Below, in pieces: positions 1,622 through 64,000 of a DNA stretch of 64,000 nucleotides; position 1 is the first letter of the stretch; the number at the start of each line of letters is the position of its first letter. The notes below the pieces were generated by a model that saw nothing but the letters and a program-made list of their open reading frames with translations, was not told the origin of the DNA and made no database searches. Made by a program: the position numbers and the translations under genes. This DNA comes from Sipunculus nudus (lineage: Eukaryota > Annelida > Sipuncula > Golfingiida > Sipunculidae): the NCBI GenBank assembly GCA_026874595.1, contig CM049313.1, forward strand, positions 35,615,159 through 35,679,158, written 5' to 3'.

Positions 1622-24104
<22,483 letters not shown>

Positions 24105-32820: not shown

Positions 32821-34019
32821 ACAAGTGATCCATGGGTCATGACGCTCAGCTGACTGGGAAGAGATTTGCAAAAGGAAATTTTATCATCTGAATGGTAGTA
32901 TATAACCATTCAACTGAAGCATCAAACAGATTAACCAACAGGCTGAGATTGTGTCTGTATTAATATATCTCATAAATAGAGAAAAAATGAGTAAACTTTA
33001 AAAAAAATACAGGTGGCTCCACCAGTCTGCAGAAACTAATAAAAACACTTAATGGTCAATATCCATGCAAAGAAGCATGGTGGTCTCTGGATTAGTTGTT
33101 CATATACTTCAGCTTTTGTATCAAATTTTCCATTATTCTGAGGGATACTTTGGAGTCCTATAGCTTGAAGGATATGGGTAACAGAGACCTAATTTCAGGT
33201 TTCCTTGCATGACAAGAATGAAGATTCTAGGTCCAGTTGTTACAATTTGTACCCTGTTGACAGATAACCACATCTTTAAGGGTCTCAAAAATAGAGAAAA
33301 TAATTCGTAAAAATTTGAAAAAAATAGAGGTTGCACACCAAGTCTGCTAAAACTGATGGAACATGTCATGATCAATATGTATGCCAAAAATCATGAGCAT
33401 CAGTGTTGTAGTTATTGAGATACTGGAGTTTTTGTATCAAATTTTTCATTATTCTGGGGGGTAATTTGGAGCAATACAGCTTAATGGATATGGGTAACAG
33501 AGACCTAATTTCAGGTTTCCATGGGGATTTTTCATGGGTCTCCCTGTGTGTAAAGAATGAAGATTCTAGGTCCAGTTGTTATGATTTGTGCCATGATAAC
33601 AGATGTTCATATCTTTAAATGTCTCAAAAATAGAGAAAAAAATTCGTAAAAAATGGAAAAATAAAGGTGGCACCACCAGTCTGCAGAAACTGATGAAACA
33701 TCTCATGATCAATATGTATGCCAAAAATCATGTCCATCAGTGATGTAGTTAATAAGATATTGAAGTTTTTGTATGAAATTTTTCACTATTCTGGGGGGTA
33801 CTTTGGGGCCCCATAGCTCAAAGGATATGGGTAACAGAGACCTAATTCCAGGTTTCCAAGGAGATTTTTTCATGGACCTCTCTGAATGTAAAGAAAGAAG
33901 ATTCCAGGTCCAGTGGTTATGATTTGTGCCTTGTTAACGGACAGACGGCCGGATGGCCGGACGGACGACGGACAAAGAGTGATCGCTATAGCTCAGATGA
34001 CTTACAGTCAGCTGAGCTA
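32821..34019 (+). mobile_element. Complete tandem-array hairpin element, family 1 (copy A)
   Basis: The 5' end is ACAAGTGATCCATGGGTCAT, followed by GCTCAGCTGACT. Three and a half units of 315-340 bp follow, marked by GGATATGGGTAACAGAGACC near 33172, 33487 and 33825. Then comes a CGGA-rich tract at 33938-33975. The 3' hairpin at 33989-34019 has stem TAGCTCAGATGACT and loop TAC. Its descending arm AGTCAGCTGAGC is the exact inverse complement of the 5' GCTCAGCTGACT. There is no coding. It is probably a non-autonomous Helentron-like element. Confidence 0.75.
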
Positions 34020-37000
34020 AAATTTATGAAAAAGTAGAAGTAGAACTTTTTGTACAAGGCTGACAATGACTAGCAAAAAATTTTGTACAGCAACAGTAAA
34101 TGAAGGTATTTGAACACACAGTGTACTCAGCCTGTAATCAGTCTTTAAAAAGCACATGTATCAGTGATGCAGTAACGCTACTCAGGAAGGCTCAAGGCAT
34201 ATTATTTACCACAAAACTGACGAGTGTATATTCATTCAAATACAAAATAATTTCACAATACATTACAAGATTATTTAGAAAAAATATAATCCCATAAGTA
34301 GTGATGCTGTTTACAATAATATGTGGAAACTTCTCCTTCAAGACACCTCCTTATCAGAGACACCTCTCCATTACAGACACATCAGGTTATAAGGTACAAG
34401 TAAGGGTTTGGAGGTATGTAGCTTTTGTACTACTGGAACCTCTCCAACCTGGAAGCTGCCATGTCCTTAACTGGAAGCGTCCATTCTAGTTTAATTCACA
34501 CACAAAAAAAAATAATACTGAATTCATGTCACATGTAAATTTTAGATATTGATGATCTGCCTTCTTAAAGCATTAGTAGTGATGGTGATGCTGAAAATGA
34601 CTTCATTACTGTAATCTGCAGCAATGTTTATGACTAAATACCCTTTAAAACATGAGATATTAGCAACCACATATAATACTGTATGTATAAAAATAGTATG
34701 TACCTGCTTTCCAAACAGCCAGGGGGGGGAGGGGCAATGAAAATGTATCCCACATCAAGTAGTCAATGTCTAGATTGCTTTGTACTCAATAACAAGTGTA
34801 CACCACAGAAGGACAAGTGCACCTAGTTGTGTTCAGGTCCAGAGAACACGCACTACAGGCTTTGTTAAATTAAACAAGTTAAATTAAACTGACTCTGACA
34901 GGGACCTTTCCTTTAAGGAATAGGTATGGTCTTTTTATATTGATAAAATGGACCCAAGCACTTAGTGTCAGCTATTGCCAACAGATGTCACCAGCAAGAT
35001 GATAAAAACGTCTACTGCATTGTTAAATGTAATGTTAATTATCTACAGCTGCCAACCACAGGAGGCATAGATTCTTAGTGATCTAATGAGACATAGTATG
35101 AACACTAGAATATTATGCTTAGGTTAATATATACCTACAAATCAATATTACAGGGCTGATTAACCATATTTAAGTAACTATTAGTGTCCAGGTGAGTCTC
35201 TGGAAAAAATATGCATTGTAATACTAATATATCTATCTGCTTGGAGTTAACCCCAACATTTCATCAATAAACCTAACAATACACTGATAAACAAAAGTAT
35301 ACATAAAAATAAAAATAAATTTAACAGATCTAAAATCATAAATACAAAATAAAATTACAAAACATGCAACTAAAGAGTAAAACTTGCATGACTATAGGCA
35401 AAACATGACTGATTTATTAATAATTCTGCAGTCACTGAAACAAGCCACAATATATTTACAGTATAAGCGCAGAATGTTTATACACAAAATATTCAGTGGC
35501 AATGATGTAGATAATAATAATGCTGACTGTATACATGTGATCCCTGAAAATCCTATAAGCAACTTCCCTATACTAATAATCAAATAGGGCAAATTATACA
35601 GTACAACTTTTGAGACTGGTCAACATTTAAATCAGAGGCAATCAGACTTTGGTTCAAATGCAAATGCATTCACATTTGCATGTAATTAAAGACACTGGCA
35701 ACAAGAGAGGTAATTGACCTAACCACCACAGCCCTTATGCTCCACCCCTTTGACCTAATAATGCAAATGAGCCCCACGGTCGCTCCTGTTACAAGACAAA
35801 AGTAACATCACAAAGGTCCGTCATGCATGATGTCATATCGACTGACATCACCAGCTGGAATGGCACTTATATCCTTGTTCTTTGGTGATGAATATATAAC
35901 AATCCTTGTGACCTTTTATACTGTCTCCTTTGCATAAAAAAATATCCTGGAAAAACATTTGGACACAGGTACTGATACAAACTTTAAGTGTTTCTGTTGT
36001 TTTTGTTGATGATGAACTGTGACCATGGTTTTTGGAATGGAATAAAAAATGTGACTTTTTACCATGACAACAGTAACCTGATTGGTTGATTTCAACTGTT
36101 CCACTTATGATCATTAATTTAATGAATATGCCATGAATATCATGGATATTTAATGGTCAGGTCAATTTCCTGCGATTTTATGATGGTGCCTTTAAATGTT
36201 CATTTCACAAAATTGCTTTGATTTTGTCAACACTGCAAGAAAGGGACATCTTACTCTTACACCCTGTCCCAAAGAGCTTTAATATAAGTACAGACAGAAA
36301 AGTAAAAAGTAATGATGTAAGTCTCAAAGCAACACACTTTTACATAAAGCTATCATTTCCTACACCAGTGAAAATGCCATCTTTAGCTACATTTCTGCTG
36401 CTTTAAATGGTGTGCATAGGACCTCAAAATCTTCAGCAAAACATCAAATCAAAACATAAAATCTAACCTGCAGATAACAAAGATCACACACTAACCAACA
36501 CTCTGTGAAGACCTACTTGAAAATTTAGGCAAACATCACCTATATGTCTATTATACATACATTATTAATGTGTAAATAATGAGTAATTACAAAATGCTGC
36601 AGTTTTTACACAGGAACCTTTCACTTTAGCATGTAATGAGCTGGTACTAAAAGATTAGTAAGTTTATTTGAACCATTCACAGTAACATTATGCATATACA
36701 TTAAACACTGAAAGTAATGAAACTTATGAAGACAGGACACAGAGATCATTAGAAATAGAATGTAAGCTTTATCTTGAAGTTGAGACCAGAATAGAGACTG
36801 AGACCATTTTTATTTTGAAACCAAGATCAAAGACCAGAACCTCAGAGACCAAAGTCAAGACCCTAAAAATTCATCTTGAGACCCTGTATTGAGACCTTAA
36901 TCACTGATCAGAACCTGTCATTTACGTACCTAGGTCATCATCAAAAATGATATCCAACAAGCTAATTTAAGTACACATTATGAGATTTATTTAAATCTTT

Positions 37001-38188
37001 CTGCAGCAGGAAATTCACCAAAACATGCAAAGCAAAGATCACCAATGCTGACTAGCTTAGCTTATAAGAGTGTCTTCTTCTATTAATAATGGTGAGTTTC
37101 TGTGGATTTCTAAGCCAAGATAGTGCCTTGAACAAGTATCATTTGAGGCAACACTTCCTGCACACCGTTTTCCACACAAGCCTGAAGCCTTACTGTTTTT
37201 GAGTGTTCATTTAATACAGCCGAACACAGTTAAACCTTCATCATTCTCCACCTGTTCACTTGAAAATTTTAATAACCATAACCTACTTTTGATGTCCAAA
37301 TAGATTGTCAAATTTATTTATACATGCATCATTCTCAATACCAATATCTGCTAATCACGTGTTGTACTGTTCAGGAGTGATATCTGAACTTAATTATGTC
37401 CTTGTCCATCTCTTGTGATACTGAATTCATAATTATCACCAACAGTACTTTTAAGTATACCCCCACTTCACTTTTTTATTATCCTTTTCATGAACTGGTA
37501 CCCTTTTGGGTGAAATGGGTAACATATTTTGGATTGAAGCACTCCATAGATATTCCTCAACTTGGACTTGAGTACTTGTTACGGAAACAACATTAACCAA
37601 TGTAGCATTTAAAATATTTTTAAACAAAACCTGATTTTAAACATCTCATTGTGACCAATTTAATGCATGTGTACAAGAAGGTATATTTCACATTTCAGCT
37701 TGTACTGTTATTCTACTTTAAATGTGCAGGAATACATTATTTATACTGGTAACAAAAAATTAGATTTGCAAATATTATAAATATCTACATGATTTAAACG
37801 CATAAATGTTTCAAAATGCTGACCTTCACAAATACCAACTTCAGGCTCCAATATCTGGTCGAAATTACTCAGATTCAGGTATTAGCGTACCTCCATTATC
37901 TGCCACACTCACCTCCAGCCAATAATTCTGATGGTCCTCATGCTGACAATAGAGTGAGGTTGTACTTTATACTACATATATAAGGGACTTACATTTCAGA
38001 GGCACCATCTTGGATCTTGGGATAAATCTTCAAAAATACACCCAATGTTACCTACAGTATATAATCATTACCTACACATACATGTCATAATAATCATCTG
38101 CAGAGCATTAATAAATAAATTTACCTACAGTGAGAAGTGAACATTTTGAAATGATTATTGTACAGATCACCATTTTGCTGGTTGTGTT
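34020..38188. other. Intergenic, including the likely 3' UTR of the CUB/LDLa gene
   Basis: No gene was recognised. Read on the minus strand, an AATAAA lies at 37313-37318, about 870 bases past the stop codon, and could serve as a polyadenylation signal. This was not established. Confidence 0.4.
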
Positions 38189-38313
38189 TCACACGGTTGT
38201 AACAATACGCCTCATCTGCCTGCAGTCTTCTTTGGATTCCTCATTCTCTGTGGGACTTTTCTCGTCTGAATTATCCTCAAATTCTCGAAACTTGTAAGGA
38301 GGTGGAGACTCTC
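38189..38313 (-). CDS. CUB/LDLa gene, terminal exon F
   Basis: The acceptor is TATTTTCCAG|G. The reading frame ESPPPYKFREFEDNSDEKSP continues to ...RRIVTTV and stops at TGA (38191-38189). The entering phase matches both donors of exon E. The acidic tail carries a second PPPY motif. Confidence 0.82.
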
Positions 38314-41300
38314 CTGGAAAATATTCAAATAAATATTTAATAAATGTTTTAATCATAAAATAATTACCTCCTTTATTAGTGCAATTTATAATTTAATTTC
38401 TGCATTATTGTACCCCATCATTTCAATCACCTCAGAGTAGCGGTTTTTATTTCTGATATTTCTTTCAAATCAATATAGTTTGGAAATAACTAGGGACCCA
38501 TGGGTCTTGACCCTCAGCTGCATTTGTCTATAAGGAGATATGTTGATGAGGTTTTCCAAAATATTGGTCCTGTGATCAGTTTGAAGCCAACCTGTCTACC
38601 CAAACTGGAGTTATCATCCATAAACTAATTTGTGAATGGATGGGCCCTGTGACCTTAACCTTTGGGCCCTGTTACCTTAACCTTTGGCCTTGTGACCCCA
38701 AAATCAAAAGGAAACTTCCCCTATTGGCAGGTGCACCACATGTCGATGATGGAAGGATTGAGATGAAAGGTCTGACTTAAAATGCATCCACAATCTTTCT
38801 AAAGTAGAGGGTCCTGTGACCTTGACCTTTATATCTCATGACCCAGAATCAACAGTTCTTACTTTAGTGGTGGGCCATATATAAGTCAAGTTTGAAACCA
38901 ATATTTCAAACCTAACTCTTGTTATCATCTGGAAACTAATATGTGGATAGATGGCCCCATGACCTTGTCATTTGACCTTGTGACCCCAAAAATCCATAAG
39001 TTACTTCCACTATTGGCAGGTGAGCAACATCTAGAAGATAGAAGGTTTGGGACAGAAAGTTTGGCTAAAAATACATCAACAAGCTTTTGAAAGAAGTGGG
39101 TCCTGTGACCTTGACCTTTGGCATTATGGCCCCAAAATCAAAAGGGTTCTTACATTATTGGTGGGTCATATATAAGTCAAAATTGAAACCAATATGTCAA
39201 TCAAAACTGGAGTTATCATCCAGAAACAAATATGTGGACAGATGGGCCCCTGTGACCATCACCTTTGACCTTGTGACCCCAAAATCAATCAGGTTCTTCC
39301 CCTATTGGCAGCTCAGCTATATGTGCAAGATGGAAGATTTGGGATGAAAAGTTTGGCTTTAAATGCATCCACAATCTATCATAATAGGTAGGTGCTGTGA
39401 CCTTGACCTTTGACCTCATGACCCGAAAAAACTGAACAGAACCTTCCCCTGTTGGCAGGTTAGCAATATCTTGAAGATGGAAGGTTTGCCATTAAAAAAA
39501 TCCATATGCATTCTTTTTGTAGAAATGAGTCTTGTGACCTTGACCTTTGACCATTGGACCCCAAAATCGATACGGTTCTAATTTAAGTGGTGAGTCATAT
39601 ATAAATTAAGTTTGAAACCAGTATGTCAAACTAAACTTGAGTTATCATCTGGAAACTAATTTGTGAACAGATGGCCCCTGTGACCTTGACCTTTGACCAT
39701 GTGACCCCAAATTCATTTATGCTCTCCCCATACTGGCAAGTCAGCTAAATGTGCAAAATGGAAAGTTTAGGATGAAAAGCTTGGCTTAAAATGCAGCCAT
39801 AATTTTTTTTTTTTAATAAGTGAGTCCTGTAACCTTGACCTTTGACCTCATGACCCCAAAATCATATAGGTTCTTGCTTTAGTGGTGGGCCATACGTAAG
39901 GCGTAAAAAAAAAAAATTCTTTGTTTCCGGTTACCCGACCGACCCTAGATTTACTGTGCGACCCATAAATTTTTATTTGGATTCTGATTGCAAAACCAGT
40001 AAAAGTCGAGGTTTGCGCGTGGAATTTTTAGGTGAAGTACCACTTAATGTCGACAACTTTAATCTGTCATACTGATACAAATTACGATGTTCTGAGATCG
40101 TCACTGACAGTTCAAATATACCCGCGAAAACGGCGTGTGGACGATCATATTCATAAGTGGGTTCGTCAGCTTAGAACGTAGTTCTGCGCAACTTTTTTTA
40201 ATTTATAGGAAGCAGATAAATATCAAAAGTGTTCCACTGGAAAAATAAGCAGCTTCTTTCAAGCTATGAACGTGGCCTCCTCAGCGAATGTCTGATAGCC
40301 GTGACCCGTCTGAGAACTGATTCGAGATCGTTCAAATTTGCCCTAAGCCCCGTAAATTTGCATCTTCCATAAAGCCTTATTAATGGCCCGCTTGTATGCA
40401 CGGTCGCGAGTCGGCAATATTCGGAAGTGAGTGCCATCTTTGGCTATGCAAATGAGTTGAAATGAACCAATGACATGATGTTTCGTCACTGCATGTAACC
40501 GTGGTTACCTATTCGGGTATTTGTATAATATAATATTACAAAAGCTCAGCAACTGTAAGAGGGGAAAGCATTAATTTTCTATCATGCAGGGGAAGTAACA
40601 GTAAGAAGCTGATGAAAATGACCTTGATATGGAAACCTAAACTGCTGATTTACTGCTGACTGTAAGTATTATTTAGACTTTGGACAAGTAACAAGTCCTA
40701 TTTTGTCCAAACATTGCTTACTGATGGTATTAAAGGTGTAAATGAAGAGCACTTCAATGTGATAATCTAATGCAAACCAGAATACAGGTAGTTGACAAGT
40801 GACAATGTGTATCCGCCAAAATCAGAGTAGGACGGGTGAAGTGAGGCATGGATTGAGTGGCAAGGGGAAATAGAGTTAGATGTGTTACATATTAGCAAGA
40901 ATGTCTGCCACATAAACATGATTGTAGGTGGTGCCACCTGTAATTTGACTGAGAAACTATCCAAGATGTATACACATGCAAAATTTCAGGTGGAAAAGTC
41001 AAACCACTGCCGAGAGATGAGTGATTTTATCAAACAGCAGTTGGACGCTGTGCAAAAATGGTTGCAGGTGGCGCCACCAGTTTCTTGTATAATAAAGAGC
41101 TATGTGAGATCCAAACACATGCAAAACATCAGGAAGATATGTCAAACCAGTCCAGAGATATAAGCATGGATGTCTGCAGCATGAACCTGAATGTAGGTGG
41201 CGCAACCTGTCATATAAAATCAAGAAAGCTATCCAGGATGTATAGGCATGCCAAATTTCAGGTGTATAAGTCAAACCACTGCTGAGATATGAGTGATTTT

Positions 41301-44300
41301 AACCCAAGTGAAACTACCAGATGAACGCTGTGCAAAAATAATTGCAGGTGGCGCCACCAGTTTCTTGTATTATAAAGAGCTATGTGAGATCTAAACACAT
41401 GAAAATTTTCAGAAAGATACGTCAAACCAGTCCGGACATATAAGCATGGATGTCTGCAGTGTGAACTTGAATGAAGGTTGCGCCAACTGTCATAAATTCA
41501 AGAAAGCCATCCAGGATGTATACAAATGCAAAATTTCAGGTGAATAAGTCAAACCACTGCCGAGATAGGAGTGATTTTAGCCCAGGTCAAACGCAGAGGT
41601 GGACCCTGTGCAAAACTAGATGTGTCGGAACGACACGAATGCCCCCGCCTTGGGCAAATTAGAAACATTTGTAAAATTTTGAAAAATTTTTAAGTTCAGG
41701 AGGTGTTGTATGGTCAAAAGTAGGTCAACAAGGGCAAAATGCAAACTCGATCTGTAACGGGTAATTATCAAGCAACACACCAAAAATCATGCCAGTATAT
41801 GCAGGCATTGTGAAAAAAAGTCCATACACGTGCAACAACAGGGTGGTATCTGCAGGCATTGAGTAAAAAAAGTCAGTACATATGCATTTGTTATGAAAAT
41901 TTATATTTTTCATGAAACTTTCTATGTTCAGGAGCAGTCAAATGGTCAAAAGTAGGTCAACTGAGACAAAACAAGAACTCGATCTGTAACTGGTCATTAT
42001 CTGCCTACACACCAAAAATCAGGCCCTTATCTGCAGGCACTGCGAAAAAAAAGTCCATACATGTGCATTTTTTTATAAAATTTTCATGTTAGAGCACCGT
42101 CAAACGGTAAAAAATAGGTCAACTGGGACATAACGTGAACTTGATCTGTAACTGTTCATTATCTGCCCACACACCAAAAATCAGGCCAATATCTGCAGGT
42201 ATTGCGAAAAAAGTCTGTACAAGTGTATTTGTCATGAAAATTTATATGTTACATGAAATTTTCTATGTTCAGGAGCCGTAAACAGTCAAAAGTAGGTCAA
42301 CTGGGAAGAAATGTGAACTCCATATGTAACTGGTCAATATCTGTCGACACGTAAAAAATCAGGCCAATATCTGCAGGCATTGCGAAAAAAGTCCGTACAT
42401 GTGTATTTGTCATGAAATTTCATATTTTTCATGAAATTTTTTATGTTCAGGAGCTGTAAAACAGTCAAAAGTAGGTCAACCGGGACGAAACGCGAACTCG
42501 ATCTGTAACTGGTCTATATCTACCAACACACCAAACATCAGGCCAATATCTGTAGGCATTGCGAAAAAAAGTCCATACATGTGTATCTGTCATGAATATT
42601 TATATTTTTCATGAAATTTTCTAAGTTTAGGAGCCGTAAAACGGTCAAAAGTAGGTCAACCGGGACAAAACGCGAACTGGATCTGTAACTGGTCTATATC
42701 TGTCCACACACTAAACATCAGGCCAATATCTGCAGGCATTGCGAAAAAAAAGTCCGTACATGTGTATTTGTCATGAAATTTCATATTTTTCATGATATTT
42801 TCTATGTTCAGGAGCCTTAAAAAGGTCAAAAGTAGGTCAACCGTGATGAAATGCGAACTTGATCTGTAACTGGTCTATATCTGCCCACACACCAAAAATC
42901 AGGCCAATATCTGCAGGCATTGCGAAAAAAAGTCTGTACAACTGTTTGATTTCGGAAGGACGGACATGGGTAAAACTATATGCCCCGGCCACTTTGTGGC
43001 AGGGGCATAAAAAGGGCACAGGTGGCGCCACAAGTTTCTTGTATGATAAAGAGCTATGCGACATCTTATTACATGCAAATTTTCAGGAAAATATGTCAAA
43101 CCAGTCCGGAGATACAAGCATGGATGTCTACAGCGTGAACGTCAATGTAGTTGGTGCCACCTGTCATAAAATCAAGAAAGCTACCGAGGATGTATATGCA
43201 TGCACATGAATTAGTCAAACCAATGCAGAGATATAAGTGATTTTAACCCAAGGCAGACGAACAGATGGACACTGTGCAAACATGGTTGCAGATGGCACCA
43301 CCATTTTTTGTGTGTTATAAAGCTTTCCAAGGGCTACATTTGTACAAAATTATTTTCCTGATTGGTCAAACGAGTCCAAAGATATGTTGGTTAATGTGTC
43401 AAACAGACTGGACAGTGGAAAGGTCAAAGGTCAACGCCGATTGGTTAGGCACCAGTTCACATGTGACCTGATAATTGGAGTAAGTTTTGGAAAAATCAGT
43501 CTAGTAGTCTCAGAGGAGTTCTCCGGAAACAAATGTGGCAGCAGCGGCTGAACGGGGCCAAAAACATAGTATTTACAAAACTTTGTTGTGGCGGATACAA
43601 ATACTTGTTCAGTGTTTTGAACAATAAGAAGAGAAATTACAGTGGAACCCCGCCTTGCGACCACCCCACAATTGCGACCACCCGTCAATTACGACCATTT
43701 TGCTTGGTCCAGAATTTTTTTTAGTTTATTTATGTTTAAAAATGACTCAAAATTACGACCACCCCTGAATTCAGAATTACGACCAGATTTCCTGGCCCCA
43801 GTGCTAATGCGACCCCGCTAATGCGACCACCGCCGAGTGGTACTGAAACAACAATTGTCACGAGTCAATGGCTGCGTCTTGTCACAGGCGCCTTAACGAA
43901 AGATCAAAGCGGGTAACAAGGTTTCTTAACCCGAGTGTTAATCTGGTCCCGCATATCTTCCCGACTCGGTGTCTTCGCTGAGACTCGTTGAGGTATTGGT
44001 TATAGTTCAAAGAGGGTAACCATCGGCCTGATTACTAAATGAGTAATAAGTAATAAGTGTGGGGTTGCGGGCTTAATATTTCAACTCATCACATATTGTT
44101 CGATCCTCATTGGTAAAATTAACGACCTAGTTAATCCTAAATGTGTTCATACCTTATTGACACTTGAGTATTGAGCAGTCAGTAAAATGTATAAATAAAG
44201 CTTGCATGGGGGAAAATCTCTCACATTAACTTGCGTTTTCTGATAGATCGTTGTCGGTTTATTTCTCTACTGATTAAGTTTGCATTTTACTTGCTTGCTG

Positions 44301-47300
44301 TTAGGCAACCATGCCTCTGAAAGACTCTCCTTGAGGGATAAAGTGGCGTTAATCAAGGCGGCAAACACCACGCGCAGTCAGCACCAAATGGCTCAGCAGT
44401 TTAGCGTCAGGAAAACTCGAGTGCACGCAATATATACTCAAGCGGAATGCTAAATATATGACAGCCATGTATTATGTTCAACATGCATTCAGTAGGTTGT
44501 AATCGTATTGCCTTAGTGTTATTATTTGTTAATCATCAGTCACTACTTATGTGGACATGTATATTAATTTTTATCATGAAAAAATATGTTCAGCTACACA
44601 CACAAAAAATTCATAATAAGGGTCCTCCGCTAAGTAAATAATGTTGTTATAATTCACAATAAAGATATGCAATAGATAAACTCTGATACACATTAAATAT
44701 TATACACATTATATGCGACCACGGTAAGAGTTTCACAAATACGACCACCCCCAAATTACGACCACTGCTCAGTCCCCAGGGTGGTCGTAATTGTGGGGTT
44801 CCACTGTACTTTCATAGTGTCTAACATTCTCGTGTATGTTGGTGTATAATACTTACTTGAAGAATAAGGCGGAGACATCATGGGACATATGTAGTCTGTA
44901 CAGCCTATTGATGGTGGTGTATAATACTTACTTGGAGAATATGGAGGAGGCATCATCATTGGACGTATGTAGTCTGTACAGTCTATTGATGGTGGTGGGT
45001 CATCACACTGTGTCATCTGGTCTTGTACCTCTGCTCTCAACATTCTACCATTCTCACGTAGCTCCCTGATTCGCTCTGTGTAAAGAGAAATAGTGATGTT
45101 TAAATGATAATTAATTCAAGACAAAGTCACATGCACATTGAGTCAAAGGTTTCTGCACTGTGTCCTGTAGTCATTTGATCCTTCCAATATTTTTTTTTCT
45201 TTATTTTCACTCACCACATTTATGTGTAATTCTGGTTTACTAAGGATGAAGCATTTTAACAGGTAAAAATAAAGGTTATTTTTCATAGATTATACATTTT
45301 AACTAATTAAAATAACTAATGCAGGGGTAGTCGACCAGACGGCCGAAACCCAGAATGCCGAAACCCAGAATACCAAACCCAAAATGCTGAAGCCCATCTT
45401 GCCAAAAAAGAAAATAAATAATAGGATATAATGTGATTAATGCCCAGTAAAGTGACAAGTATGCTGTCTGTTAAGGTACTTGAACAAAATTTGATACCAT
45501 CCTCCAATATTTTTAAATAATTTACCGTAATTTATTCGGCATATCGGCAGCGGCACTACTATAATGTCGGCAAAACAACCCGGTTCCGCTAAATGTCCCT
45601 GGCTTTAGTAAACCCTCATTTTGCAGGTATAGTCAGACTAACTGATTTTCATGAAGAAAGTTATATCTTGTGTCACATTTATGCTTCTTTATGAATTATT
45701 TTTTCCTAATTTACACATCGTTCAACTGCATATTAGCCAAGATGACGGCGGTTGCGTGGGGAACTCAAGGCAGCGTGGATAAACATCCACACTTTCATAG
45801 CAATACACCACTTTGTGTACACAATTAAATGTGCACTTTAATCATTGTAACCCTGGTGGTACAATTCAAAACCTAAAATGTAGCATAGCCAAGAATAAAA
45901 GAAAATACAGAAAATTATAACATTCATCTAGTTAATGCACCATCTGGGGGGGGGGAGTGCAGGGCAGAGTGGAAGCCTGCTAGTAGTGGCCAAGCTGGGC
46001 CAGCAAGCTGCCTGGGGTGGGTTACATAATGCAAGTGAAGGCTGTGTTACTAGGTGGGCTAGATGTAAACAACACTTGACATGGTGTATGAAAACTTGAA
46101 TAAAAGCTACTCTTTTCAATCAATTCCTTTGAAATTTCAGATTTTAAAAGATTAAATCCTTATGTATATATGCTGTGAAAATTAAATCAACAGTGCTTAC
46201 TGAGAAAAAATGTGCCATTGCCAAAGTTGGACAAAATTTAAGGTATTGATTTTTTATTTATGCTAATAACTTGAAAAATTTGCAAAATTCAGATCTAATT
46301 TTGGGTAAACCATTGAATCTTGATTAAATAAAGTTATATTCCTGAAAAAAGTCTCCAGCTTCAGCAATTCTCATGTTAGGTGAGTAAATATATTTTCTGA
46401 TTTTTAAAAAATTGCATTATATTTAGACCCATAACTTCAAAATTATACCTAATACTGACCTAATTTTTGGTATGTTCATAGAAAATGTATGGAAGAATAT
46501 GAATACTAAATATGATCAAAAACAGATCAGTGGTTTTGACATTAGGCAGCCTTGAATTGTTACAATGGCTTTTTTATGAAAAACGGAGGTTTTTCCTTAA
46601 TATCTCGAAGGAACGAAGTCCTAATGACCCAATTTTCGGTATGGTAGGAGATTTTGGGGACATCTAATGGTATGCAAAATTTTGGATACATAGGTCCAAC
46701 GGTTTTAAAATGTGCCCTGTTAACGGCCGGACGGCCGGACGGATGGACGGACGGACAAAGGACAAAGGACCACGACTATAGCTCAGATGACTTACAGTCA
46801 GCTGAGCTAAAAATGCATTTCTCCTGGTCAGACATAAGAGTGAAATAAAAGATCTTATCAAGGAAATTTTCAAAATTACCTTATTCAATCACTCCCAAGG
46901 CCTTGAGGGAACATTAAAAAATTCAGAGATTTTTAAGGTTTCGGGAGTCCTGTTTCATTGAATGACAGTTCGCCGTATGTCATTGCTTCTTACCTTGTCT
47001 GATATGTTGAAGGATTCTACGTCGCTGTCGTACTCGGCTGCCTTTGAGAGCAATCAGCGCAAGAGTCAGGATAGCTAGGAGGGGTAGTGTCCATGACAAC
47101 CAATACTTATATAATGCACAGTGGCCCCCAAATACCCCAATACAGGACAGGCTCTCCTTCAGACCAGGGGCTGCAAGTCGAACATAACTGTTTACATACA
47201 CAAGTATACAAATGTCCAGTTTAACCTTGATCTCTTGTCTATAGCAGGACCAACAGTATTTTCAGGCTTATTGATGGTGGCAGATGTTAAAGGAGGCTGC

Positions 47301-53300: not shown

Positions 53301-56300
53301 AAAAATATACTCTTTTATTCTTTTAGCATAAAAAATTATAAATTTAACAAGGCCTTAAGGCATAATGTGGACTTGTGCAATGGGATATTCATCAGGCATA
53401 ATGCTTCCAAGCATGTGTTACATGTAAATGTACAATGCAAGTACTAAAAATTTTGAACCTGAGTAAAAGCCCCAATTACACAAATGTCACCAGTCTTGTG
53501 TACGATAAAGCCATTGAAGATGTATGGACATGAAAAATTTCAGACGGCTACTTGAGCTATGTGCACAGTTGCATAAAACAATTGTAGGTGGCAACTATCC
53601 AAGATGCATCGACATACATAATTTCAGGCTGATATGTCAAACCACTCCTGAGAAATAAGCAGGAGCATACATTATAAAGATGATTGAAAGTGGCACCACC
53701 AGTCTCCTATACGATGAAGCTATCTGAGATGTATACATATGCCCAATTTCAGGCTGATATATCAGCAAGTACACACACTGTGCAAAAGTCATTGTAAGTA
53801 GCAACACCAGTCTTGTGTATGAGAAAGCCATCAAAGTTGGAAGGACAAGTCAAAATGTCAGGCCAGTACACCAAACTTCTCTTGAGTCAGGTGCAATGGG
53901 CTGACCAAGCTTAGCTGAGGAAGGCAGGTGCCCCAAGTCAAGCAAAGCTAAATCCTGAGTGAACTCTGCACCTGGCTGCATTGAGTGAACTCTTGACCTG
54001 TTGCATAATCTGATACATTTGGCAATCTGCCAAAACTATAAAAAGATCCAGACTGACCTTTGGCCTGTTGCCAAATCTGAAATAGTTAGTAGTCTACCAA
54101 GTTAATTATAGCTACAGACACAATCTTCATTGGTAAATCTCTTTAAACATATTGAAAGATTCTGGTTACAAAGCTGATTTTTCAAGCTGACACATTAGTC
54201 CTTTTTTTATCAAAATGTTAAGAATAACTAGATGCGGTCAGACAATGGTCCTCAGAGGGCCCCGCATTTCTGCTGGTGCTGGACTAGTTTACATATGGGT
54301 GAAAAATTAAGTTAAATTTGAAAAATATCTTATACAACTGAAAGAACCATACCCTAGGTCAAATCTTGTGAAAAATTAAACAATTCAGCTTGGCAGTTTC
54401 ATCATAATACTTTTTTAAGCTACAAGAGGCTAAAATTATGAAGTTTTTGCCCATAAAAACAGGTCAATGCAGGTGGTGCCACAAAAAACTTTCATATGAC
54501 CAACATTTGCACAAAACTTGGTACGTTAATATGCTAATCTGATATAATGACTAAGTTCAAGTTCCTGAAAAAGACACAACTACTGAAACCCAAACCATTT
54601 GAATAAATTTGAGAGAGCACATCTCTAGGATCATTTCTGTGAAATATTGAACAATTTAGCAGAACGATTTAAGAGAAGAAGATTTTAAAGCTATTTCCCT
54701 GTAAAATGTAAGTTAATGCAGGTGGTGCCACACACACCTCAACCCACAGCATTTGATTTGTGATAGATTTTTGCAAAACATTTGGGGATGCTGGTTCCTG
54801 CTATTCCTGAGAAATAATGGGTTAATGTACAGAAGACCGATGATACCCCAACAAAAAAGTTGTGATGCAAATGGTGCCACTAGTTCTGCAATTTCAATTA
54901 TGACTTATATTACCAACATTTGCATAATATTTCGTGATGATAGCTCCAGCTCTTTCTGAAACTGCTCTTTTAGTATGTGTTTTTGGTAAATGAATAAGTT
55001 CAATTTCCAGTTACTTGGCCAAAAAAAACCAAACAGAAACCATTTGAACAAACTTGAGAAAGATTGTTTCTGTGATTATTTTTGTGAAATACTGCTTAAT
55101 TTGGCATAATGGTTTCAAAGAAGATTTTTAAAGGTTGTTTTTAAGCTTTCCCCCTCTAAAATCTAAGTCTATGCAGATTTAAAAAAATAAGCTCTATCCG
55201 GTAGAATTAGCCATGTGCCTGATTCTTCCATAAAATTTGGTGCTGCTAGCTTTGATGTTTTTTGATGTAGAATCGGTTAATGTGTAGTGGATGCAGTATG
55301 GCATAAAGACTACACTGTATCATCGCATAAGCTTAGAGGTTCCCTAATAATTCTGTGCAAATGTTTACATGTGCACATCCAGCCCTTTCAGATAAAAGAA
55401 ACTTGATCAAAATCTGTCAATGAATAAAGGAGAAGATTTTTTGGTGAGCTGTGGATGGACACCAGCGTCCATCCAGCCAGACAGATGAACAGTTCCTGCA
55501 TTGCCATAGCATGATCTCATCAAGCCTTCGGTTGGATTATCTAAAACCATCTTTAAGACTTTAACAGTCTGATAGATAAGCACACATCCAAAAAATTACC
55601 TTTCTCTCTCAAGAGTTTTTAGTATAAACTGGTGTTTAGTTAAGATAATATTTTAGATTGTGGAAAACAAGAGATATTGAAGAACAACTTTGGGAGTGTT
55701 TCTCAGGCAAAAACCACCTCAACAGTTTGTGAAAAATACGGTAATCTTGACATCTTACGAAGGTTATTTCTGAATGCTGTGACAGTGAACTGGAATCCTC
55801 GGTTTTGTCCTGTTGGTTTGTATGTCACCCACTGGATAAGGAGGTCACGTGCTTCTCCCAGGTTTGGTGCCATTATCACGCTACTGTGAGAGCTCTGATG
55901 GCCGAGTAAATACTCGAGGGGACCGCAGTATGAATGCACCAACTGAAAATAAACAGAACGTCAATCAGAGTGAGACCAGTACATGAGATAAAGGTAACAT
56001 GATATAAAAGTTAAAACAATCAGGAACAACACATTTAATAATACTAAAATGATCATTACCAGAAAATGTCATAACTGTAGGATATAACAGTATAATGATT
56101 AACAATATGATATAACAGTACAATATAACAGTTTGTTTATGGAAAACATGATGTAACAGTAGGAAACAATGCATGATATAACACTTCAGTTGTTATGACC
56201 AGAGCATGATATAACAATAGGTTATAACAGTATGATGATAAAAAAACATATACATGATATAATACTAACAGAATAAAGATCAGGGACACTGCATAATAAA

Positions 56301-56727: not shown

Positions 56728-57047
56728 CTGAAACATGTACATTCAAGACAATTTACAATTAATGAAATCATGCAATACTTATATGATACAGACAATCAGA
56801 CATTTAAGCATAATCCAAAACAGAAAATATATTTAAAGAAAAATATTATGACATATAGATATGCATGTGCCAGTTAAACAAATAAGCTAATTTTAAAATC
56901 ATGGTATTTTTCTCGTAGCAATACCTATGAAGCATCAACACCATCTTATGTTCATTTTATGAAATCAATCATTTCAACAGTCATGCATATACTGCAGGTT
57001 TGTTCTGTATATCCTTACAAAGTACAAGATTCCTCTCTTTATCATTA

Positions 57048-58800
57048 TAACAAGGCCTACAGGCCTAATGCGAACCTGTGCATTGGGAAATACACCAGGT
57101 ATAATGCTTCAATGCTGGACAATTACTTTTCATGTATATGAACTATGCAAGTACTAAACATTTTGAATAAGAAACAATTACACAAACATCACTGCTGAAA
57201 TTCTGGCAAAGGTGCACACAACACTAAAAAGATTGTAGCTGGTACAACCAGTCTTGTATACAACGAAGCTATCAGAGATATATACATAAGCCCAATTTCA
57301 GACTGATATATCAAACCCCTCCTGAGAAAAACGTGTGCAAAGGTCATGGTAGGTGGCGACACCTGTCTTGTGAGCGAGAAAGCCATCAGAGACACATAGA
57401 CAGGTCAAAATATTAGGCCAATTCATCAAACTTACCTTGAGTCTGATGCATGGGGCTGATCAGGCTTCGGTGAGAAAGGCTGTTGCCCCGAGTGAACTGT
57501 GACAAATTGCTTGCTCAGACTACTGCACTGAGTGAACTCATGACCTGCACCTGGCTAGACTGAGTTAACTTTTGACCTATACCTGGCTGCACTGAGTGAA
57601 CCCTTGACCTGTTGCATAATCTGACGCAGTTGGCAGTCTGCCAAAGCTTTAAACAGAATGCAGCTACTGCACTGAGTAAACTCCTGACCCATACCTGGCT
57701 GCACTGAGTGAACTCTTGACCTGTTGCCTAATCTGATACAGTTGGCAGTCTGCCAAAGCTATAAATAGATCCAGACTGACCTCTAGCCTGTTGCCAAATC
57801 TGAAATAGTAGCCACACCATTGCAAAAGCTCATGCAGGGGCCCTGCCCTGAGGGGCTTGACATCCATGAAGTGATCACATGGTGCCCATGAGGTGTTCAC
57901 ATGTCACCAATGAGGTGATCACATTCCATTTGCTTGGCTGCACTGACTGAACTCTTGACCTATATCTGGCTGCACTGAATGAACTCTTGATCTGTTCCCA
58001 AATCTGAAACAGTTGGCTATTTAAAGATACAGATTCAATCTTGGCCTGTTGGTATATCTGTTTACACATACTGAAAGACTTTGGTTAAAATTTCTTTTTT
58101 CAAGCCGACATATTCATAAACTTTTTATCAAAATATCTAGAATAATAAAAGATGCAGTACTTTCATTGTTAAAGGTCCAATAGTTCTGCCAAAAATCATT
58201 CTAGTAAACTTGAACAAAGGCCACCTAAGAATAATGTTTGTGCAATGTTACAGAAGATATAATTGAAATAATAATTTTGTAGAAGAACACTATTGCAGTC
58301 CTCAGTTTGAAAAAGACATAATAATGGCCATAAGACCAACTTAAGCTTTTCATAACTCAACCAAAAATCAACAAACTCAGTATATTCTGATATGATTGAA
58401 AGAACCATGTCCTAGGATAATTCTTTTGAAAAATTGAACAATTCAACTTGACAGTTTCATCATTAAGCTGAAAGAGGCTAAAATTATGAGTTTTTTTGCC
58501 CATAAAAAACAGGTCTATGTAGGTGGCACCACTAAATCTACAACTTCAAATATGAGTCATGTGACCAACATTTGCACAATACCTGGTAATGCTAGCTTCT
58601 GTCATTTCTGAGAGTACTATGTCAGTATGCTTACTTGGCCGAATGACGGTACAAATTTGTGTAACTCCACTAAAATTCATCAAATGCAAACCATTTGAAC
58701 AAACTTTAGAGGGCTTGCCTCTGGGATCATTTATGTAAAATATTTAACAATTTGGCTGGACCATCTACAAGAAGATGACTTTTAAAATATTGTCAGCTTT
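57048..58800 (+). repeat. Second copy of the 53345-54900 segment
   Basis: It is collinear with 53345-54226 and then with the inner part of family 4, for example AAAGAACCAT, GAGGCTAAAATTATGA and GCCCATAAAAA. Divergence is moderate. No clean ACTAG start remains at the equivalent point near 58140. Confidence 0.65.
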
Positions 58801-58835
58801 TTCCTTACAAAATCTAAGTAAATGCAGATAGCAAA

Positions 58836-59052
58836 ACAAGTGACCCATGGGTCATGACGCTCAGCTTACTGGGAAGAGATTTGCAAAAGGAAATTTTATC
58901 ATCTGAATGGAAGTATATAAACATTCAACTGAAGCATCAAACAGATTAACCAACAGGCTGAGATTGTGTCTGTATTAATATATCTCAAAAATAGAGAAAA
59001 AATGCGTAAACTTTTAAAAAATACAGGTGGCTCCACCAGTCTGCAGAAACTA
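58836..59052 (+). mobile_element. Family 1 element copy B, 5' piece
   Basis: It is nearly identical to 32821-33036 of copy A, starting ACAAGTGACCCATGGGTCAT and ending CTGCAGAAACTA. It is interrupted by the next element and resumes at 63649. Confidence 0.85.
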
Positions 59053-62000
59053 ACAAGTGACCCATGGGTCATGACGCTCAGCTGCCAAGCATGACCTGCG
59101 ACATCATGGGCTGCGATTCAAAACTAGTAAAATTGTTGCAGAACCTATATGCCAATTTTGTTTAAACTTTCTACATTGCCATAAATTCTTATCATATATG
59201 TCTGGTTAAAACATAGTGAACTAGATATTTCTTGGCACTGCAGGTGCCAGAGTATCCCCAGACATAGTAGGCCCCCCCCCCCTTTAAGAATAGGCCCCCA
59301 TTTTTAGCAGCATATACTGACACTTGGCAAGCAATTATTGTTTCTTCCATCTATCAATCCACAATCTTTTTGAAGATGTTGGTCCTGTGACCTTGACCTT
59401 TGACCCAAAAATCAATTGGGGTCTTGCTTTTTCAATGAGACATATATAAGTCAAGTTTGAAATCTATACATCAATAAAAGCAGGAATTATCATCCAGAAA
59501 CTAATTTTTGGACAGATGGCTCCTGTGGCCTTGACCTTTGACCTTGTGACCCCAAAATTGATATTGATCATCCACTTTTATATATAAATCAATAAAGGTC
59601 TAGATTTATTGATGGGCCATATATAAGTCAGGTTTAAAATCCATATATTAATCCAAGCTTGAATTATCATCTCAGGAACTAATTTTTGGACAGATGGCTC
59701 CTGTGACTTTCACCTTTGACCTTGTGACCTCACAATTGACAGGCGTCTTCCTTTATTGGCAGGGGAACTGTATGTGCAAGATGAAATGTCTGAGATGAAA
59801 TGTTTGGCTGAAAATGCATCCACACCTTTTTGAAGATGTGTCCTGTGACCTTGACCTTTGACCTCATGATCCCAAAATCAATTCGGGTCTTGCTTTTCCA
59901 ATGGGACATATACAAGTCAAGTTTGAAATCCATACATCAATAAAAGCAGGCATTATCATCCAGAAACTAATTTTTGGACAGATGGCTCCTGTGACCTTCA
60001 CCTTTGACCTTGTGACCTCAAAATTGATAGGGGTCTTCCACTCTTGGCAGATGAACTTTATGTGCAAGATGAAAGATCTGAGATGAATTGTTTGGCTGAA
60101 AATGCATCCATAATCTTTTTAAAGATGTGTCCTGTGACCTTGACCTTTGACCTCATGACCCCAAATCAATTCGGATCTTGCTTTTCCAATGGGTCATATA
60201 CACGTCAAGTTTGAAATCCATACATCAATAAAAGCAGGAATTATTATCCAGAAACTAATTTTTGGACAGATGGCTCCTGTGACCTTCACCTTTGACCTTG
60301 TGACCTCAAAATTGATAGGGGTCTTCCACTCTTGGCAGATGAACTTTATGTGCAAGATGAAAGATCTGAGATGAATTGTTTGGCTGAAAATGCATCCACA
60401 ATCTTTTTAAAGATGTGTCCTGGGACCTTTGACCTCATGACCCCAAAACCAATTGGAGTCTTGCTTTTTCAATGGGACATATATAAGTCAAGTTTGAAAT
60501 CAATACATCAATAAAAGCAGGAATTATCATCCAGAAACTAATTTTTTTTACATATAGCTCCTGTGGCCTTAACCTTTGTTCCTGTGACCCCAAAATTGAT
60601 ATGGATCATCCACTATTGGCAAGTGAGCTATATATTCAAGATGGAAGACCTTGAAAGTTTGGCTTAAAATGCATCCACAATATCTTGTAAGATGCAAGTC
60701 CAGTGACCTTGACCTTAGACCTCATGACCCTAGAACCTATAGGGTTCTTACTTTAGTAGTGGGCCATACATAAGTCACGTTTGAAATCCATATGGCTATC
60801 AACACTGGAGATATCATAAGAGGTGTGTGATTTTCACCAAATATGGACACATTAAAGGTCAAGGCCACTCTAATGGTAAAGGTCATGACCCAAATGTAAA
60901 CAGACCTCACCCCATAGCCCATCTCTCTACATGTGCATAATATGAAAGAAATCTGTCCATTAGTTTTTGACTTATAATGCTTACAGTACTGTCAAGTGGC
61001 AATTATGGGGGTATTAAAAGGCGTAAAAACAAGAAAAGGATAATAGGTGGCGCCACCAGTTTCCGGTATATCACAAGGCTATCCAAGATCTTCGGTCACC
61101 TTAATTTTTAGACCAGTCCATGCAAGCTTACTTGAGATATTTAAGATTTTGTGTTATTTTCAGCAATAATGGACCTATTCAAGGTCAAGGTCATTCTCCT
61201 AGCATAGGTCATGACCCCATTTTAAATAGGCTTCGTCCCCTTACCTATATCTATACAAATGTAAAGTTTGAAAAAAATCAGTGAAATATTTTTTTAGTTA
61301 TCCCACTCACAAGGTTCTTCTGCGGCAGCGGCGGGACCGTCATGAAACCATAGTGTCCCGACTTTGTCTGGGGATACAATGATGGTCTGAGGCAAATTGT
61401 ATGGTTGTTGAGCTATCAGGTACTAATCCCACAGCTTGCTCGATACCTGTCAGTCTCAAAAAGAATACCACACAGGCCACATTTAAGATCAAAATATAGC
61501 AAAAGATCAAGGAAATCCATGCAAGAATTATTGTGAAACAGGTGCTTCCATATTAATTTTTATTCAATACAAGCCAACTGTACTGAGCTTTCATAAATGA
61601 TGGTCATCTTTATTAAGAAATCTTTGACCCAATGCAAGATAACATTAATATACATCCCACTGCATTCACTTTAATAGTTCTTGAGATAATATGTTCTAAA
61701 GGAATTTAAAGATGGCTTCCTGGTGGCCATATTGGATTTCTGACAGGTTGGAAATTGAACATCAAACATCCTCTAAAAGGGACCAAACATCATAAAAAAA
61801 TCACAGAAACTGCCCTGGCAAAAGGATTTCTAAAATGGCTACCTGGCAGACATAATGGTTTTCTGACAAGTCTGACATTTGATATCACACATCCTCCAAT
61901 AAGACACTAAACTTGTAGCAATTGCTTCAAAGAATGTAACAGTTATGAATGTCCAAAACAATTCAAAAGGCATGATCAGGTTGGAGAGCTCTCATATCAG

Positions 62001-63648
62001 ATTTATGAACATGCAAATGTAAAAAGTGCAAGTCCAATTTGTTTTAATTATCAGCTTGCTATTCAATGGGGTCAGCAGGGTAGGTAAACTGCAAAACCTA
62101 AAAGAAAAGAAATGCAGAAAGCATCACTAAGAGTCTTGTAATCAAATAAAGCCATCCTAAATCCAGGTAAAGACCCACATATTATCAGAACAAACACTTG
62201 CTGGTATATCTGATGATTTTTATAATAATATTCAGATATCTAGAAAACTAAGTTTATTGCTATGATTCCATGATATAAACTGCAAAATGTTCCCATCATT
62301 TTATAAATCAGTAGCTAAACCTTAACACTTAACTCTCATAGTCTTAACGCCTGGCTTAAGCATTCCGGCAACAGTGTTTTTGTTATGCACTAATGATATA
62401 TCCTTATCACTCCATGAGCTGATAAAAAAGGGAGTCATATATCACAAGTGTCACTGACAATTATGGGCACATAGTGAGATGTACCAGTTGTGAGTGCCAT
62501 GGTTATATATACAAGAAAACAAGAAAAATAGAGATGGTCTACAAAATAAGTTATTGTGAACATCCCTGACCTATGACCTTGGCCTTTTGCCCACATATCA
62601 ACTGGATTCTTTCTAAATGATGGGTAACTACTTACCACTTACATCTGGCTGGGTGTAATTACTTGGCAACCAATGAGTGAATAACTTAGACCTGCAACCT
62701 TTAACCTCCTGACCAGCTGACCTCAAAATCAATTAGTTATTTCTTCATGCAAAAAGACCCATAAATATGAAGTTTGAATCAAATTCAGTGATGCATAGAT
62801 GTGGCATATGTGAAAGACTGAAGGTTTGGGTTGAACAGTTTCACTTGAAATATGTTCACAAGCATTTAGAACAATATTGTGACCTTGACCTTTGACCTTT
62901 TGAACTCAACATCAATAGGCTTCTTCTCCTATTGGTAGGCAAGCCATATATGACAGATGGAAAGTATAGATTGAAAAGTTTGCCTTAAAATGACTCCACA
63001 CAAGAAGAGGGTGCTGTGAACTTCTCCTTTGACCTCAAAATCAACAGGTCTTTTCCCCTGTTGGCAGAGAAGCAATATCAGTGCTGAAAGGTTTGGAATG
63101 AAAGGTCTAGCTTGAAATGTGTCCACAACCTTCTCAAAGAAGTGGATCCTGTGACCCTGACCTTTGACCTTGTGACCTCAACATATATAGGATTCTTCTC
63201 CCACTTAGTAGGTGAGCTATATGTGAAAGATCAAAGAATTGGGATGAAAGGTTTGGCTTAAAATGCATCCTGAGGCTTTTTTCGAAGAAGTTGGTTCTGT
63301 GACCTTGACCTTTGACCTTTTGACCTCAAAATAATTATGGTTCTTCCCCTGTTGGTAGGTGAGCTGTATGTGAAAGATGGAAGGTTTGGGATGAAATTTT
63401 TGGCTAAAAGAATTATTTCTGGGGGGTGCAAACACACCCCATAACTTCGAGAATATAGGTCGCAGTGACCTAATTTCAGGTTTGTAAGGAGATCTTTTTA
63501 GAACTTCTAAGACCGCATAGGGTTCATGGCCCTAGCCCCTACGGTTACGATTTGTGCCCTGCTAACGGCCGGACGGCCGGCCGGACGGAAGGATGCCGGA
63601 CAAAGACCCATCGCTATAGCCCAGCATGACTGAAAGTCAGCTGAGCTA
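59053..63648 (+). mobile_element. Family 1 element inserted into copy B, 4.6 kb
   Basis: It starts ACAAGTGACCCATGGGTCAT. It ends with a CGGCCGGACGG tract and the hairpin at 63617-63648, whose arm AGTCAGCTGAGC is complementary to the family 1 start. Inside are a family 3 element (59220-61378), unique-looking sequence with no coding (61379-62860) and units with TGACCTTGACCTTTGACCT at 62880-63320. Confidence 0.8.
59220..61378 (+). mobile_element. Family 3 tandem-array hairpin element
   Basis: The start is ACTAGATATTTC, followed by TGGCAC/GTGCCA as an inverted repeat at 59233-59249. GTATCCCCAGAC at 59252-59263 is the exact inverse complement of GTCTGGGGATAC at 61366-61377. The hairpin tip is GACTTTGTC. 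The body has units of about 288 bp. Neighbouring units at 59900 and 60188 are almost identical. A C13 run lies at 59270-59282. Confidence 0.75.
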
Positions 63649-64000
63649 ATAAAAACATTTAATGTTCAATATCCATGCAAAGAAGCATGGTGGTCTCTGG
63701 ATTAGTTGTTCAGATACTTCAGCTTTTGTATCAAATTTTCCATTATTCTGAGGGATACTTTGGAGTCCTATAGCTTGAACGATATGGGTAACAGAGACCT
63801 AATTTTAGGTTTCCATAGACACTTTTCATGGGCCTTCTTGCATGACAAGAATGAAGATTCTAGGTCCAGTTGTTACAATTTGTACCCTGTTGACAGATAA
63901 ACACATCTTTAAAGGTCTCAAAAATAGAGAAAATAATTCTTAAAAATTTGAAAAAAATAGAGGTGGCACACCTAGTCTGCTAAAACTGATGGAACATGTC
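63649..64000 (+). mobile_element. Family 1 element copy B, 3' continuation (runs off the window)
   Basis: It matches 33037-33400 of copy A, starting ATAAAAACA. It carries about 24 bases near 63810-63835 that copy A lacks, and continues past base 64000. Confidence 0.85.

Follow-up and report, generated by a model that had tools for sequence, protein, structure and literature searches.

Tandem-array elements at a Sipunculus nudus locus read as non-autonomous Helentrons, with candidate autonomous partners for two of the families

The stretch of DNA described here, hereafter referred to as the window, comprises 64,000 nucleotides of the 1.43-Gb genome of Sipunculus nudus (C8:35615159-35679158) and contains four families of repeated non-coding elements, numbered 1, 2, 3, and 5, which share one arrangement of their ends. 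A sequence-only reading had placed them by coordinates, paired subterminal repeats, and internal tandem arrays, and had likened them to Helentrons and their non-autonomous relatives, the HINEs. When the motifs were located again in the window, the coordinates given for the four families proved to be exact or one base off, and tandem arrays were found in all four. The subterminal inverted repeats (subTIRs) are of the length expected for such elements (∼11-15 bp), pairing exactly over 13, 13, and 11 bases in families 1, 3, and 5, respectively, and over 10 of 11 bases, judged by eye, in family 2. The features are provided below, with strands in the coding orientation and the label HINE anticipating the assignment argued for later; IR denotes an inverted repeat complementary to the 5' subTIR.

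32821..34019, minus strand: complete family 1 HINE, with its 5' end at 34019 (TAGCTCAGCTGACTG...), a 337-bp array, and its 3' end at 32821 (...GTCATGACCCATGGATCACTTGT).
34005..34017, minus strand: 5' subTIR of family 1, CAGTCAGCTGAGC on the plus strand, followed inward by its IR (...TCATCTGAGC).
32844..32856, minus strand: 3' subTIR of family 1, GCTCAGCTGACTG on the plus strand; the stretch from it to 32821 holds the palindrome TGACCCATGGxTCA and CTTGT.
40776..43599, minus strand: family 5 HINE, 5' TGTATCCGCC at 43599 and 3' ...CCTGTATTCTGGT at 40776, holding family 2.
41615..43009, minus strand: family 2 HINE, 5' TATGCCCCTGCCACAAAGTGGCCGGGGCAT at 43009, a 180-bp array, and 3' ...CGTGTCGTTCCGACACATCTAGT at 41615.
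59220..61378, minus strand: family 3 HINE, 5' TGTATCCCCAGAC at 61378 and 3' ...GTCTGGGGATACTCTGGCACCTGCAGTGCCAAGAAATATCTAGT at 59220.
59053..63648, minus strand: 4.6-kb composite with family 1 ends, lying inside the second family 1 copy and containing TGACCT arrays and the nested family 3 element.
58836..64000, minus strand: second family 1 copy, which exits the window and is broken by the composite at 59053-63648 (repeat D18, 96% over 188 nt).
46779..46807, minus strand: extra family 1 5' module consisting of subTIR and IR (repeat D19).
38489..38519, minus strand: variant family-1-like 3' end, CAGCTGAGGGTCAAGACCCATGGGTCCCTAGT|T.
26157..26197, plus strand: 3' end, GTAGTCGCTTGTCGACTACCCGTATTCTAGT|T, belonging to another family 5 copy that is oppositely oriented and has an array at 25509-25965.

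As can be seen, the elements are nested: family 2 lies within family 5, and family 3 within the composite, which itself interrupts the family 1 copy starting at 58836. The end pairs are GTATCCCCAGAC/GTCTGGGGATAC for family 3 and TGTATCCGCC/...CCGTATTCTAGT for family 5. Note that the family 5 copy in the window ends in ACCAG rather than ACWAG, the genome-wide form of this end being CTAGT.

The orientation adopted here is the inverse of that first claimed. Among 16 Rep-helicase loci viewed on the 3' side, three, L020, L022, and L026, all of one Rep clade, terminate ∼1 kb past the gene in GTCAGCTGAGCATCATGACCCATGGGTCACTTGT|T. This sequence is, single bases apart, the reverse complement of what had been taken for the 5' end of family 1. 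Because the gene-bearing copies end in its reverse complement, the ACWAG end, which carries the palindrome and CTWGT, is the 3' end, and the hairpin-side end is the 5' end.

With this orientation the 5' module consists of the subTIR followed by an IR and a microsatellite, the latter two judged by eye. The IR pairs are GCTCAGCTGACT..AGTCATCTGAGC in family 1, ATGCCCCTGCC..GGCCGGGGCAT in family 2, and GTATCCGC(C)AAAAC..GTTTTGCGGATAC in the family 5 copy at locus L030; the IR of family 3 matches its 5' subTIR imperfectly only. The microsatellite behind the module is GTCC/GTCY in family 1, CCGTCATT in family 2, and GCCGCC in family 5 copies. The 3' palindrome is visible in the window for families 1, 2, and 3. 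For family 5 the copy that terminates at 26197 has it as GTAGTCG-CTTGT-CGACTAC, and it is eroded at 40776 and in L030. The outer pair of the family 1 palindrome is A-T at 8,177 places genome-wide and G-C at 1,402, with one-sided forms at 126 and 96 (reversed controls, 0). These counts support, rather than prove, preservation of the palindrome through two-sided change, since the places are not independent events. A sister autonomous lineage (L024, L047, L048, L052, L053, L057, L067, L068, L071, L072, and L075) has the G-C palindrome, with additional changes to the stem or its immediate surroundings at some loci; in L024 the base after the end is A, not T.

Several further observations concern the ends. 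The palindrome GGTGGCGCCACC is repeated in the family 5 array units and inside family 3 (window 41060-41080, 61044-61060, and others), with variants in family 1, and may represent a shared functional site. Three family-1-type 3' palindromes are spaced exactly 760 bp apart at C3:48771375, 48772135, and 48772895, perhaps as a head-to-tail array of short elements. The 5' ends of family 1 are frequently paired ∼520 bp apart, as at C1 940325/939806, 1383546/1384067, and 7015715/7016236, and among the first 100 matches listed the flank is AAGTGTTTT in 8 and TTCAATTTT in 14. A second 5' module within the array is also present in autonomous family 1 copies, such that the 5' termini are duplicated in one element.

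Within the window alone the plan does not rise above chance. ACWAG was sought on both strands together with a repeat no more than 60 bases behind it that recurs as its inverse complement after a further 300-6000 bases; as control, shuffled pentamers were drawn 20 times, with some of them coming up repeatedly. Repeats of length 10 gave 139 matches versus 53-235 in the shuffled draws, and those of length 12 gave 22 versus 10-51. The genome-wide scan with the end motifs that had been suggested as a check gave 1,863 to 10,452 places versus 0 to 3 for the controls, which were reversed patterns. Specifically, the family 1 end motif occurs 9,257 times with at most one mismatch, the family 1 3' and 5' ends 5,775 and 8,138 times, the family 2 3' end 1,863 times, and the family 3 end 3,646 times with at most two mismatches, all with controls of 0; the family 5 end occurs 10,452 times with at most one mismatch (control, 3). 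The end plan is above chance because the ends recur thousands of times in the genome and mark exact insertion boundaries.

These boundaries were defined by empty sites. The composite at 59053-63648 occupies the site TTTTTAT|TAGTTTCTG, as deduced from the uninterrupted family 1 copy near 33036, with the cut ambiguous over TTAG. A family 5 copy within the autonomous C9 element described below lies at AACAGTAAT|TAATGTT, a site that is empty in the C17 copy. For family 3 in the composite, a paralogous empty site, CCATCAAT|TCACTG, is located in L024 near position 1419, and for family 2 within family 5 the other array units imply the site CCCTTTT|TTTGCACAG. All empty sites except one in L069 fit insertion between two Ts (T|T), and no target-site duplication accompanies any of those examined for families 1, 3, and 5 or that inferred for family 2. 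The flanks were counted at the first 100 places listed for each end rather than in a random sample. A T follows the 3' end at 93, 95, 98, and 96 of 100 places for families 1, 2, 3, and 5, respectively, and precedes the family 1 5' end at 98 of 100, with at least four Ts at 83 of 100. Since five of the 100 listed family 3 places, the window copy included, share the flank TCACTATGT, the composite that has family 1 ends and encloses family 3 appears to have been mobile as one piece.

A long copy with identical ends and a Rep-helicase gene, the test set in advance, was found for families 1 and 2. Three autonomous elements with family 1 ends are located at C17:35625478-35640362 (14.9 kb), C5:42907357-42923484 (16.1 kb), and C9:52343451-52359726 (16.3 kb). 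The C17 element alone was followed in sequence from end to end; the C5 and C9 elements were followed minus ∼5 kb in the middle, with the Rep taken from genome search rows. Upstream of the gene each begins with T-run|AGCTCAGCTGACTGAAAGTCA..., followed by the family 1 array. Their left flanks share nothing, and their right flanks share two stretches, not at both junctions. Upstream of the genes in C17 and C5 lies a 5' end resembling that of family 5; it was considered as the 5' terminus of these elements and rejected as a nested copy, because homology continues upstream of it. In the window, the family 1 5' module and array (∼1,020 nt) share 81% identity with the opening 1.07 kb of the C9 element, and the final 35 nt share 94% with the terminus of the C17 element. 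The open frame in C17 encodes 2,342 amino acids with Herpes_teg_N, DUF6570, Helitron_like_N (3.4e-27), and PIF1 (5e-23) domains above the Pfam cut-offs. Its C-terminal, frameshifted region matches Exo_endo_phos_2 at 1.2e-5 and 25.5 bits, below Pfam's 27.4.

The N-terminus of the family 1 Helentron protein (L027:2-1375, minus strand) matches the herpesvirus tegument cysteine-protease family PF04843 (2.7e-13), and this region occupies the place where other Helentrons have OTU.

Two autonomous elements carry the ends of family 2, namely C5:20300943-20313328 (12.4 kb), followed from end to end, and C3:41766494-41778498 (12.0 kb), followed minus 3.8 kb in the middle with the Rep taken from genome search rows. 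The loci L056 and L023, which belong to a distinct Rep lineage, have the 3' end CCAGCGGGGGCATTCGTGTCGTTCCGACACATCTAGT|T, and the 3' end of the autonomous C5 copy is identical to window positions 41613-41648 at 36 of 36 nt. On the 5' side the partners start with T-run|ATGCCCCCGCCACAAAGTGGCCGGGGCATATAG and hold the family 2 array upstream of the gene. The 5' module of family 2 in the window is 96.7% identical to that of the C5 copy and the array 85%. The C5 and C3 elements are 97-99% identical to one another over most compared stretches and unrelated beyond the junctions; across the partner copies of both families, three short matches occur in the flanks, none from junction to junction. The C5 element encodes PIF1 (2e-26), Helitron_like_N (3.1e-14), Exo_endo_phos_2 (1e-6, 29.0 bits), and DUF6570 domains. 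Rep motif 2 reads FYRVEFQQRGSPHIH in family 1 and FYRIEFQQRGSPHAH in family 2, both with an S separating G from P, as in Helentrons (PMC4067079). An autonomous partner with Rep, PIF1 helicase, and endonuclease was thus found for these two families only, the endonuclease of family 1 being below the cut-off.

The T|T target without duplication, the subTIRs, the 5' IR, the microsatellite, the 3' palindrome, and the Rep-bearing copies bear out the Helentron/HINE plan first claimed. The four families are best read as HINEs, that is, non-autonomous Helentrons, with families 1 and 2 each having its own autonomous partner in this genome, a reading to which a probability of roughly 0.93 is assigned. 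Each HINE retains three parts: a 5' module (T, 5' subTIR, IR, and microsatellite), the tandem array, and, as 3' module, the 3' subTIR, palindrome, and CTWGT. The Rep of the matching Helentron lineage would nick at the ends, and the strand would be rolled off by what is presumably rolling-circle chemistry. The 3' palindrome before CTWGT is proposed to serve as the stop mark, following which the strand would be joined between two target Ts with no target duplication.

Some of the evidence weighs against this assignment. A second, more diverged paralogous site for family 3, in L069, reads CAAG|TCA rather than CAAT|TCA; at the family 1 and family 5 empty sites the cut can be placed only to within 2-4 bases, and the family 2 site is only inferred from array units. 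The family 1 5' flanks comprise only 72 distinct sequences among the 100 listed, some corresponding to the internal second 5' modules, and two founder lineages could yield much of the contrast in the palindrome counts. The gene in C17 is frameshifted near its C-terminus, and that in the family 2 C5 element is split across several open frames. HINEs of Culex are given in PMC4067079 as more than 95% identical to their partner, whereas the corresponding values here are 81% for the family 1 body and 85-97% for family 2. Finally, an end of family 3 or 5 could be assigned to a gene in none of the 44 Rep loci surveyed, mostly in pieces of 2.5-4.5 kb.

The partners also bear on the origin of the arrays. 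Directly behind the 5' module, in equal place and orientation, the family's own array is present in the C17, C5, and C9 elements of family 1 and in the C5 and C3 elements of family 2. Because the partners hold the array there, upstream of the gene, the simplest origin of the family 1 and family 2 HINEs is loss of the sequence that runs from the array to the final 35 nt, such that a HINE would combine the start of a full-length parent with roughly its last 35 nt, the Rep-helicase-endonuclease gene having been lost. On this view the HINEs would owe their arrays to the parent, and not the parent its arrays to the HINEs. The reverse order, in which HINEs acquired their arrays from satellite DNA of the host and the autonomous elements received them only later by recombination, is the alternative that survives best, although it is considered doubtful. 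Capture of filler is the favored model for insect Helitrons, as discussed in PMC7492417, and the C17, C5, and C9 elements also hold nested family 5 copies with arrays of their own, which demonstrates that arrays do enter autonomous elements by insertion and counts against too simple a view of their origin. It is the constancy of the own-family array, directly behind the 5' module in all partner copies compared, that argues against capture. Beyond inheritance from the parent, a broader proposal is entertained tentatively, with somewhat less than even odds: that the arrays, placed downstream of the 5' terminus and upstream of the Rep gene, are an original functional part of Helentrons, that a HINE is made in one step joining the 5' part to the last 35 nt, and that several lineages with far-diverged Reps share an end code (T...palindrome-CTWGT). 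The subTIR would then be a lineage-specific recognition tag, because the end code is constant while the subTIRs differ among these lineages.

A single Rep-helicase for all families had also been put forward, as an inference. Of 143 match rows, 44 Rep loci (2 + 16 + 12 + 10 + 4) were viewed on the 3' side, most in fetched pieces of 2.5-4.5 kb, such that an end farther away would escape. Nested HINE ends beside the gene, as in L019, L026, L051, and L069, were excluded. An end was identified in 18 loci (five of the family 1 form, 11 with GGCCCATGGGCC, the G-C form of family 1, and two of family 2), and 26 were without one. C-termini were compared for 42 of the 44, the other two being among those with no end. 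All 16 family-1-type ends lie behind a family-1-type C-terminus (64-100% identity) and both family 2 ends behind a family-2-type C-terminus, with no crossing of end type and Rep lineage among the 18. The Rep-helicases of the two families are only 36% identical, and a third Rep clade, in which an OTU-like stretch was recognized by eye, shares 31% and 39% identity with those of families 1 and 2, respectively. Because the ends of families 1 and 2 sit on two diverged autonomous lineages, one Rep-helicase for all is unsupported. A version in which one lineage moves all four families by reading the shared T...CTWGT frame and any hairpin is improbable; it draws on the T start, CTWGT-type end, and T|T target common to the four and on the lack of an own partner for families 3 and 5 among the 44 loci, and it is opposed by the separate lineages behind the 16 and two ends and by the own-family array behind the 5' module of each partner. 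Which Rep acts on which end would follow lineage under the preferred assignment to separate partners.

Two candidate partners were rejected. In the OTU-Rep-helicase-endonuclease clade (OTU recognized by eye), the four loci followed, L011, L014, L015, and L025, have none of the four family ends within 9.5 kb on the 3' side, which is occupied by internally repetitive sequence, and in L066, considered for family 5, the array lies in the opposite orientation. Three Rep loci of equal score and frame length lie ∼30 kb apart at C7:48525832, 48556035, and 48587672, perhaps as a result of local segmental duplication.

Two features of the window stand apart from these families. An 823-amino-acid open frame at 27547-30015 on the minus strand, with endonuclease and reverse transcriptase domains (RVT_1, 1.2e-34), is probably a non-LTR (long terminal repeat) retrotransposon. 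A large inverted repeat, 47907-48420/51713-52226, has 514-nt arms that are 90% complementary and separated by 3.3 kb; it encloses two more arm pairs.

Canonical Helitrons are marked by an A|T target, a 5' TC, and a 3' CTRR. They resemble the elements described here in their Rep-helicase, their hairpin near the 3' end, and the absence of target duplication, but the T|T target, the 5' TA/TG, the 3' CTWGT, the subTIRs, the endonuclease domain, and the RGSPH motif make it very unlikely that the families belong among them. That they are miniature inverted-repeat transposable elements (MITEs) or fold-back DNA transposons moved by a cut-and-paste transposase, as the paired inverted repeats at both ends might suggest, can be dismissed as having a negligible chance, given that the repeats are subterminal, the empty sites are free of duplications, and the ends are held in common with Rep-helicase elements.

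The defining features of Helentrons and their partners in a mite, a mosquito, and flies are set out in PMC4067079. As here, DINE-1, HINE, and Helentron elements have a subTIR, an IR, a 3' stem-loop, and a TT target with T-runs, and the fly, mosquito, and mite partners combine Rep, PIF1, and endonuclease with the RGSPH motif; the long tandem arrays and the other animal hosts set the present elements apart from DINE-1/HINE (PMC4067079). Elements of bivalves also share the anatomy as described. According to PMC7492417, Pearl, first filed as a MITE or fold-back type and later as a non-autonomous Helentron, has short arrays of ∼160-bp repeats between conserved ends, as do the elements here. Cg_HINE of the Pacific oyster comprises 11 elements of one plan, several with unrelated bodies. 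Its 5' side, with a subTIR of 11-12 bp, an IR, and a GTCC/GTCY microsatellite, is as observed here, and so are the central repeats (140-180 bp on average), the 3' subTIR and palindrome, the oligo-T target, and the absence of target duplication. Array capture and intrinsic origin were both weighed for the oyster HINEs in that source. The same source could link no HINE to any of the 10 autonomous Helentrons known there, whereas two of the present families have partners. In PMC7992393, no autonomous copy was seen in the Pacific oyster, and the elements were judged to be likely inactive remnants. No published mollusc partner was found in the literature covered, including passages of PMC8268682, PMC11136912, and PMC12628747; most subscription journals and Repbase lay outside this scope, and the absence is unproven. 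The kind of element is therefore already known from DINE-1, Pearl, and Cg_HINE, and the partners and the origin of the arrays are the additions made here. HINEs with satellite-like arrays are abundant in the oyster and other genomes, and two partners with matching ends and arrays make both the mobilizing enzyme and the array origin directly testable in one genome.

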